DNA from: Thermophilibacter provencensis
GTDB lineage: Bacteria; Actinomycetota; Coriobacteriia; Coriobacteriales; Atopobiaceae
Direction of reading: 5' to 3'
Length of the DNA stretch: 64,000 bases
Assembly (NCBI RefSeq): GCF_030372065.1
Contig: NZ_JAUDEA010000010.1
Coordinates: forward strand, 1 to 64,000
The notes beneath the pieces are model-generated. The model searched no databases. It worked only from the letters and a program-made list of their open reading frames with translations, and was not told the origin of the DNA. Positions 44,488-59,816 of this stretch are shown here, in pieces. Position numbers and translations under genes: made by a program. Positions within the stretch are counted from its first letter, which is position 1. The number at the start of each line of letters is the position of its first letter.

Positions 44488-45270
44488 CTAGGCGGCGGGG
44501 GCGAGAAGCCCCAGGGCAAGCCCGAGCTGGGCGCGGTCGATCACCTGGTAGCCGGTCTCGGTGACGTTGCCCTCATCGTCGGTTGTGGTCTCGGGAACGA
44601 GGGGCGCGTCCGTTGCGGAGAGGCCCGCCGCCCCAACGGACGCGATCTTCTCGGCAAGGGCGAGAAGATCCTCGGCGTTGCAGTCCGTCCTCATGGCGGA
44701 GAGCAGCCCCGCGGCACTTCTCAGCAGCTCGTCCGCGCTTGTCCCCGCGGCGGCGGCCACCTCCGAGAGGACGTTGTCCGTTGCCACGATGACGTGCGAG
44801 AGGCTCACGTTTGCCGCGCTCGCAACGGGCTCCACCACGGCGGCCGCGCCCTCGGCGGAGAAGAGCTCGGAGAGCGTGGTGGGCGTCTCGGAGCTACCGA
44901 CTCGCGCGTCAAGCGGGACGTTTGCGAGACTCGCCGTGCCCTGCGTCGTGTTTATCGCCAGAATCTGGGCGGACTCGAGCGACGCGCCCTCGTCGAGCGA
45001 GCTTGCCGTGAGGAGCAGCACGCACTCGTGCTCGTCTGCCGAGGCGGCGTAGCCCCCGTCGGGGACCACGAAGGAGCCCTGGTCGGCCACGGCGTCAACG
45101 AGGAACGAGTCCTCCAGGTGGCTCTCGAGCGTCGCGCGCGTCCAGGCAAGGTAGCCAATCGCCGCCGCCCCCGCCAGGACCACGACGCACACCACGGCGC
45201 CCACGGCGCTCCTCAGCGCGCTTGGCCGCGGCACGTCGCTCCGCTCGAACCTCTCGCGCCTCCTTGCCAT
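44488..45270 (-). CDS. Membrane-anchored LCP-like protein, degenerate
   Basis: A 260-residue protein with a basic N-terminus, one transmembrane helix (about 18-40) and an extracellular domain that follows the LCP layout in shortened form (AQILAINTTQGTASLANVPL DARVG near 100, then LSELFSAEGAAAVVEPVASA). The Arg/Asp residues that bind the pyrophosphate lipid in active LCP proteins (SRHxxx-R...NQR) are not seen. It may be a regulatory or non-catalytic relative, and its place in a glycosyltransferase cluster fits an envelope role. Confidence 0.6.
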   Translation of the reverse strand: MARRRERFERSDVPRPSALRSAVGAVVCVVVLAGAAAIGYLAWTRATLESHLEDSFLVDAVADQGSFVVPDGGYAASADEHECVLLLTASSLDEGASLESAQILAINTTQGTASLANVPLDARVGSSETPTTLSELFSAEGAAAVVEPVASAANVSLSHVIVATDNVLSEVAAAAGTSADELLRSAAGLLSAMRTDCNAEDLLALAEKIASVGAAGLSATDAPLVPETTTDDEGNVTETGYQVIDRAQLGLALGLLAPAA

Positions 45271-59206: not shown

Positions 59207-59428
59207 GGTCACTCCTTAACTCTTGGGGTTCTCAGCACGGGGTTTCCAACCTCGTGCCTCCCTGCCTTGGCGGGGCCGGGAGCCTTGTCATGCGTCCGAG
59301 ACAGAGTCCTCCCTACCTACAGACGCAAGGAAACATGTTATTCCTTTGTCCACAGAATTTCCAGCTCTTCTCGCACATCGCGGGATGCACACATTCCCGC
59401 CAGCCACCCTCGACGCGCACCACACTGT

Positions 59429-59674
59429 ACCCAGAACTGGTTCTGGGTACGCATGACCCCAACCCATGAACCCAAATCCGGTTCTGGGTCGTCGCGACCC
59501 TAACCTGCGGACCCAAATCTGGTTCTGGGCTGGCGCTAGTCAGAGATTTGGACCCAGAACTGGTTCTGGGTCGGTGCGAATGAGAAATCCGGACCCAGAA
59601 CTGGTTCTGGGTCGTTGCGGGCGAGTGATCTGGACCCAGAACCGAATCTGGGTCGTCGTGGGCCTTACTACCGC
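59429..59674. repeat. Six-copy tandem array, 41-bp period, palindromic units
   Basis: Units begin at 59429, 59470, 59511, 59552, 59593 and 59634, each exactly 41 bp apart. Each starts with about 20 bp close to ACCCAGAACTGGTTCTGGGT (near-palindrome), followed by a more variable 21 bp with a partly conserved CGTCGCG-like start. Units 2 and 3 have ACCCAAATC at the left. The array sits between rplX and rplE in the spc operon. There is no cas gene. 59207-59428 shows no gene or clear repeat. Confidence 0.9.
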
Positions 59675-59698
59675 ACAGAGCAGGGCGGCGACAAGAAC

Positions 59699-59816
59699 GA
59701 GCCTGAGCGTGTCGCAACGACGCAAGGAGCCCCCGGTATTCCGGAGAGAAGTTTCGAGTAGCGCACTTCTCGTAGGAATACCGGGGGCTCCCCCTCAGGT
59801 ACGTAGGCTCAGGCTC
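59699..59816. repeat. Nested hairpin next to rplX
   Basis: Outer arms GAGCCTGAGC (59699-59708) and GCTCAGGCTC (59807-59816) enclose a perfect 17-bp pair (GGAGCCCCCGGTATTCC at 59726-59742 and its complement at 59775-59791), and inside that GAGAAGT and ACTTCTC. The outer arm ends at the base before the rplX stop codon. Confidence 0.8.

Follow-up and report, generated by a model that had tools for sequence, protein, structure and literature searches.

Why does an array of palindromes lie between rplX and rplE, two ribosomal genes that normally adjoin? The initial annotation of a 64,000-nucleotide stretch of Thermophilibacter provencensis DNA (contig NZ_JAUDEA010000010.1, positions 1 to 64,000; here "the window") described an array of exactly 41-bp period that interrupted the spc operon and that the mRNA of this operon had to cross. 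What is the array made of, where else does it occur, and what would read it?

Anatomy of the rplX-rplE gap

Six 20-bp near-palindromes follow one another at a step of exactly 41 bp, as first described, and TRF gave the same period. Units 1 (59429 to 59448), 4 (59552 to 59571), and 5 (59593 to 59612) read ACCCAGAACTGGTTCTGGGT, and units 2 (59470 to 59489; ACCCAAATCCGGTTCTGGGT), 3 (59511 to 59530; ACCCAAATCTGGTTCTGGGC), and 6 (59634 to 59653; ACCCAGAACCGAATCTGGGT) have mixed half-sites. Together with five 21-bp spacers, they make up an array from 59429 to 59653. When the window was searched for CCCAGAACnnGTTCTGGG at up to two mismatches, we found only six places, and these were the six array units.

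The gap measures 604 bp from the rplX stop to the rplE start. It had been said to hold no gene, which stands insofar as six open frames in the gap gave no Pfam match above the cut-off (one match was sub-threshold, E of 0.016) but not in the sense of an empty region, as open frames cross the gap and the longest lying wholly inside it has 134 amino acids. The array does lie in this gap of about 610 bp, but it takes up only part of it. In the direction of the genes, the order is the rplX stop, a hairpin, the array, a dyad, a promoter-like block, a leader, and rplE. The two genes, rplX (L24; 59817 to 60140, minus strand) and rplE (L5; 58649 to 59212, minus strand), were named from their sequence and the operon rather than from a family scan, and tblastn was used for rplE in the relatives. 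When whole rplX-rplE gaps were aligned, the hairpin came out in the wrong place, and that alignment was not used for gap anatomy.

The hairpin after rplX (59725 to 59792, minus strand) was delimited by folding and conservation. It is 68 nt long and terminator-like with few U residues behind it, and its RNA folds at −52.9 kcal/mol (z of −5.4). All 23 complete gaps first collected from the genus had a strong fold of 34 to 46 pairs in the 115 nt 3′ of rplX; the stem sequence changes between species while the pairing is kept. This two-part hairpin had eight further matches to similar sequence elsewhere in the genome. Between the array and the promoter-like block lies the dyad GCGGGATGCACACATTCCCGCC (59380 to 59401), a possible operator; sequences related to it were found in three relatives (G013, G019, and G044). 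The promoter-like block (about 59322 to 59357, minus strand) was recognized by pattern conservation, the pattern being fixed in 19 of the 23 gaps with variants visible by eye in the other 4.

The conserved leader (59213 to 59330, minus strand; 118 nt, two helices) precedes rplE in 23 of 23 complete gaps. It is common to other Coriobacteriia, and its two helices covary over 17 sequences, although its folding energy by itself was unremarkable (z of −0.93). A search of Rfam with E values up to 1 found no family for the leader except sub-threshold miRNA models. We regard it as a candidate site of ribosomal-protein autoregulation. Consensus scans for sigma-70 promoters and terminators called neither the block nor the hairpin; from conservation and folding, we infer that the hairpin is a terminator and that the block is a transcription start. 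Since the hairpin and leader, and the block with them, are found in gaps without the array, this boundary is more widespread than the array. The view that the array interrupts an otherwise continuous operon is not supported, given the hairpin after rplX and the promoter-like block and leader before rplE.

A palindrome family in the genome and the genus

A search of the genome for further arrays, as the initial annotation had advised, found two more of 41-bp period, one between dapB and dapD and one upstream of der. Genome-wide, the pattern CnCARWWSnnSWWYTGnG occurred at 33 places, compared to 3 for the pattern read backwards. Besides the three 41-bp arrays, they comprised a 30-bp array between leuS and rimP, an element of about 205 bp in nine copies, and a few isolated sites that look like chance matches. 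The der array stands between divergent genes and has steps of 41 (five times), 42, and 51 bp. Each copy of the 205-bp element carries four related palindromes in the layout P1-30-P2, a centre with GTCCTTCTCG...CGAGAAGGAC, and P3-30-P4; the centre is degenerate in one copy. The core CnCAnWTCCGGAWnTGnG matched no unit among the 19 in the 41-bp arrays, so these arrays are a divergent branch, and their kinship with the other members is judged from the plan they share, the CnCA at their ends, and the existence of mixed units such as CCCAAATCTGGATTTGGG. The immediate neighbors at the four array loci (rplX and rplE, dapB and dapD, der and a protein without a Pfam match, leuS and rimP) have no obvious pathway in common. 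As best aligned, the orientation of the arrays to the downstream gene is not constant between loci.

Two further repeats touch the nine-copy element. At L232:1180-1600, one copy sits within a further inverted repeat around GTGACACTGGCGTCAGAGCTGAG, an arrangement that looks like nested repeat families. The 10-mer GNNCTTCTCG, which forms the centre hairpin of the element, is itself over-represented, with 3,469 copies in the genome compared to 500 for its reversed control. It occurs 81 times in the window (e.g., at 44644 and 44661), where the 140 permutations of CTTCTCG (with the motif among them) averaged 4.0, and CTTCTCG was counted 61 times in 16.5 kb of gaps. By crude gene calls, the density of the 10-mer GNNCTTCTCG in the window was 1.06 per kb in noncoding DNA versus 1.29, i.e., not denser in noncoding DNA. 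Among 197 sampled genomes, the 13 of the genus had 1,852 to 3,476 copies; counts were above 1,900 in all sampled g42, g43, g49, and g51 genomes and in one g39 genome, where the control was high as well (1,263), and near the control in many others. This 10-mer is a candidate DNA-uptake or Chi-like signal, and we found no publication pairing "DNA uptake sequence" with "Coriobacteri."

The nearest named records were from Olsenella and Thermophilibacter, which we take to belong to the Atopobiaceae. The rplX-rplE gap of Olsenella sp. An290 equals that of G002, and the gap of T. mediterraneus equals that of G008. The core CnCAnWTCCGGAWnTGnG, which fits most of the versions outside the 41-bp arrays of the window's genome, was present in 15 of 31 genus genomes, with as many as 36 places in one genome; G019 and G008 are among the carriers. 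Elsewhere in the order, 10 of 364 genomes had it, at 1 to 3 places each, and its reversed control was present in 5 of all 395 genomes. The family is nearly restricted to the genus. In five genomes counted, exact places numbered 18 to 44, and with single chance-like sites left out, the intergenic places form groups at roughly 7 to 21 locations per chromosome.

Both motif and spacing differ between genomes. Half-sites of the CTCA type, mostly 30 bp apart, are found in G012, G017, and G022, and the version in G043 is CTCAYTTS. G018 and G016 have GGACCCAAATCCGGATTTGGGTCC spaced 133 to 136 and 29 bp, while G019 has CACAATTCCGGAATTGTG spaced 102 to 104 bp around a centre present in both orientations. 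In a 400-kb stretch of G022, the only array was at rplX-rplE; the 11 other one-mismatch matches were single, compared to 9 for the reversed control.

Occupancy of the loci is equally variable. We located rplX in 29 of 31 genus genomes, and the complete gaps rose from 23 to 24 once G018 was read further. By motif scan, 18 of the 24 had no family palindromes, including that of the sister species G013. The other six were those of the window's genome (G000; 41-bp steps), G012, G017, and G022 (mainly 30 and 84 bp), G016 (29 and 134 bp), and G018 (135 bp); G006 has palindromes in an incomplete gap. Between dapB and dapD, 7 of 29 gaps had palindromes (just one in G016), while in 12 of 29 relatives the two genes are only 22 to 26 bp apart. 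Each of these two loci is occupied in more than one clade. The initial annotation had held that a fixed array in close relatives would speak against it; we found that presence, copy number, and motif all vary.

Several array-free rplX-rplE gaps hold unrelated inverted repeats, among them the long repeats TACGCGACTTCCAACG...CGTTGGAAGTCGCGTA in G007 (L144) and G014 (L147), where the motif scan found no family palindromes. In G018 (L338), a Mutator-family transposase lies between rplX and the palindromes, and rplE follows. An HATPase_c_4 protein follows rplX in G015 (L130), and an RNB-domain protein does so in G011 (L125).

The Der protein of the sister species G013 is 98% identical to that of the window's genome. 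G013 (a 90%-complete genome) lacks any exact CCCARAWY palindrome as well as an array at rplX-rplE; between dapB and dapD it retains a single decayed unit, and a different gene lies close upstream of its der. The upstream neighbor of der is conserved in three genomes, G000, G043, and G042. The array there in G043 has steps of 41, 41, 41, 40, 31, and 40 bp, with CTCA-type half-sites as opposed to the CCCA-type of G000; in G042, we found a decayed set of a third type. A tree of der DNA, of which the topology alone was used, joined G000 with G013 (100/99), G043 with G044 (97/92), and all four together (80/96).

With the array placed between hairpin and promoter-like block, most complete gaps free of palindromes, and the family found beside unrelated genes, the claim that the mRNA of this operon must cross the array is not supported. 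At dapB-dapD, a transcript may well run through the array, because these genes are so close together in the 12 relatives.

Half-sites, helical spacing, and competing readings

In the three 41-bp arrays, the palindromes are more conserved than the spacers. Mean identities were 0.85 versus 0.46 at rplX-rplE, 0.79 versus 0.53 at dapB-dapD, and 0.84 versus 0.64 at der, with column-permutation P values of 0.0002, 0.0036, and 0.0082, respectively; the division into conserved and variable modules was right. The spacers are also akin to each other, with 0.26 expected from composition at rplX-rplE (0.26 to 0.32 over the three arrays). Perfect palindromes make up 6 of the 19 units. At variable positions of the 41-bp arrays, left and right halves agreed at 0.70 compared to 0.72 when shuffled (P of 0.83). 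Inner positions of the half-sites were likewise independent in G012, G017, G022, G016, G018, and G043 (P of 0.23 to 1.0), with the exception of position 2 in G018 (P of 0.012). When units of the window's genome were pooled over both classes, the halves did correlate (P below 0.001), an effect to be expected of pooling. The independent variation of half-sites argues against hairpin pairing.

Spacings below 100 bp between exact units fall in bands 8 to 12 bp apart, or about one helical turn. Among exact units, 119 of 119 spacings of 19 to 100 bp were in the ranges 29 to 31, 40 to 42, 51 to 53, 60 to 61, 72, 82 to 84, and 91 to 94. These seven modes fit a period of 10.45 bp with a P value of 0.001, in a test for which the modes were entered by hand and which was run second, after a wider test had given 0.15. 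That wider test used the one-mismatch set up to 196 bp, in which phasing was not significant and an off-phase spacing of 47 was present. Some of the longer spacings may simply be 30 and 41 added together across a decayed unit, and duplicated units are not independent.

Taken together, palindromes that are kept while spacers drift, halves that vary independently, banded spacings, and an orientation that is not fixed point to DNA bound by a dimer. We believe, with a probability of roughly 0.6, that the rplX-rplE array is a member of a genus-specific extragenic family of predicted dimeric-protein sites arranged in a BIME-like mosaic repeat. Each 18- to 20-bp palindrome would consist of two half-sites, in which CnCA is joined to an inner part that varies, and a sequence-specific protein would recognize them as a homodimer in double-stranded DNA. 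With units about 30, 41, or 52 bp apart, the dimers would sit on one face of the helix, where they could touch. Both the units and the larger cassettes (palindrome, centre, palindrome) would be copied and homogenized within a genome, between genes, like the BIMEs of Escherichia coli. Among the options that the initial annotation offered, a protein-binding array fits best. The arrays look more like docking sites for a DNA-binding protein than like a switch for ribosomal genes, and the one at the rplX/rplE boundary probably has no essential role for either gene.

A possible but rather unlikely alternative is that the family is a nonautonomous mobile element, in which the palindromes would be end sites for a trans-acting transposase or site-specific recombinase and arrays would arise by local insertion or recombination at polarity-free sites. 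Similar palindrome-centre-palindrome cassettes are indeed dispersed, the centre is by eye opposite in some neighboring copies in G018 and G019, and the patchy occupancy of dapB-dapD, with a single unit in one of the occupied gaps and next to no intergenic DNA in many others, would agree with insertion. Against this, we scanned 35 of 76 Y1_Tnp loci in 10 genomes, about 2 kb on either side where the contig allowed, and saw no such palindrome except one one-mismatch place; G019, with 30 palindromes, had no Y1_Tnp match, and mobility alone does not account for spacing in helical steps. Two of the nine elements were aligned to G013 with no clean boundary or duplication seen, the flanks being too diverged to judge; against G044 and G043, the flanks were likewise too diverged.

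We consider it improbable that the arrays are cis-regulatory, i.e., operators through which one regulator controls rplE, dapD, and der. The array stands upstream of the promoter-like block at rplE and between divergent genes at der, and repeated occupancy of rplX-rplE and dapB-dapD in separate clades would suit such a role. However, the sister species lacks the array at rplX-rplE and keeps a mere relic at dapB-dapD, three-quarters of the complete rplX-rplE gaps do without it, and the neighboring genes suggest no shared pathway. An RNA-level role, with hairpins in the array transcript acting in termination, attenuation, or mRNA processing, is very improbable. The RNA of four units (transcript strand) does fold strongly (z of −8.1), because neighboring near-palindromes pair with each other, but we rejected hairpin function because the half-sites show no compensating changes, either in the 41-bp arrays or at the inner positions in the six relatives; 13 of 19 units are imperfect, orientation varies between loci as best aligned, and the array is placed between the hairpin and the promoter-like block. 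Chance or an assembly artifact has a negligible probability: the genome is a 35-contig draft, yet three separate 41-bp arrays have different spacers, the same plan recurs in separate genomes, and the reversed-pattern controls rule against chance.

Other origins were rejected as well. Eight plasmid records gave a best E value of 0.7, there was no phage match, neither of two paired patterns turned up in a viral contig, and the inverted repeats drew nothing from Rfam except miRNA models below threshold.

Should a dedicated protein bind the arrays, the genus would be a natural series in which the motif differs per species, the architecture is constant, and array-free relatives serve as controls. 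This would allow a direct test of how genome-wide binding sites and their reader protein change together, and also of what mosaic palindromic repeats do without a RAYT. Should they turn out to be no more than self-spreading repeats, they would show that the known transposase is not needed for BIME-like mosaics to arise.

Comparison with known systems

Judged by titles and abstract openings, we found no publication on such repeats in Coriobacteriia. A CRISPR shares the regular alternation of repeat and spacer, but its repeats are constant and its spacers unrelated, while the array has varying 20-bp repeats, related 21-bp spacers, and a period of 30, 41, or 52 bp; the initial annotation was correct to deny this likeness. 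Intrinsic terminators and tandem hairpins are also inverted repeats in intergenic DNA, and one terminator-like hairpin adjoins the array. In contrast to them, the array has no U-tract, mixed half-sites, and no fixed strand.

REP, BIME, and REPIN sequences are closer. They too are extragenic, dispersed, species-specific palindromic units, in mosaics with characteristic inter-unit segments, and in the portion of PMC2817692 that concerns us, REP/BIME units are bound by gyrase, IHF, and Pol I. Taken in a wide sense, for any mosaic that combines palindromic units with the segments between them and is dispersed outside genes, the term BIME covers our family. However, it is spaced in helical steps, and its exact places are fewer than the usual figure of more than 100 REPs per genome given in one abstract. 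A passage on Stenotrophomonas REPs reports selection for complementary mutations, whereas the half-sites here mutate independently. Membership in the REP/RAYT class fails on three features. The scanned Y1 genes are not flanked by palindromes, which, with the lack of any Y1_Tnp match in G019, led us to reject a RAYT-driven REP; no hairpin is kept by compensatory change in the 41-bp arrays or the six relatives, except at position 2 in G018; and the terminal GTAG or CGTC tag, a REP/REPIN feature according to the part of PMC3733652 consulted, is missing: of the 19 units in the 41-bp arrays, none has GTAG, CTAC, or CGTC beside it, and 2 have GACG.

In the section of PMC9178275 that describes it, the sopC site of the F plasmid (parS_F) is a run of 12 tandem repeats of 43 bp; a ParB_F dimer binds the 16-bp inverted repeat that each of them contains. 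Its plan and length are nearly those of the 41-bp arrays. Our family differs in being chromosomal, at many places per genome, and of another sequence, and no partition gene is among the immediate neighbors at the four loci. We offer as a speculation, and a doubtful one, that the genus has its own chromosomal sopC-like system: a dimeric protein of changing specificity on phased palindromes would form same-face stretches for nucleoid organization, segregation, or insulation, and motif and protein would turn over together at loci and helical spacings that stay the same. The arrays that G000 and G043 have upstream of der would be an example of such turnover. In its genome habit, the family is a BIME-like mosaic repeat, with sopC its nearest counterpart in architecture.
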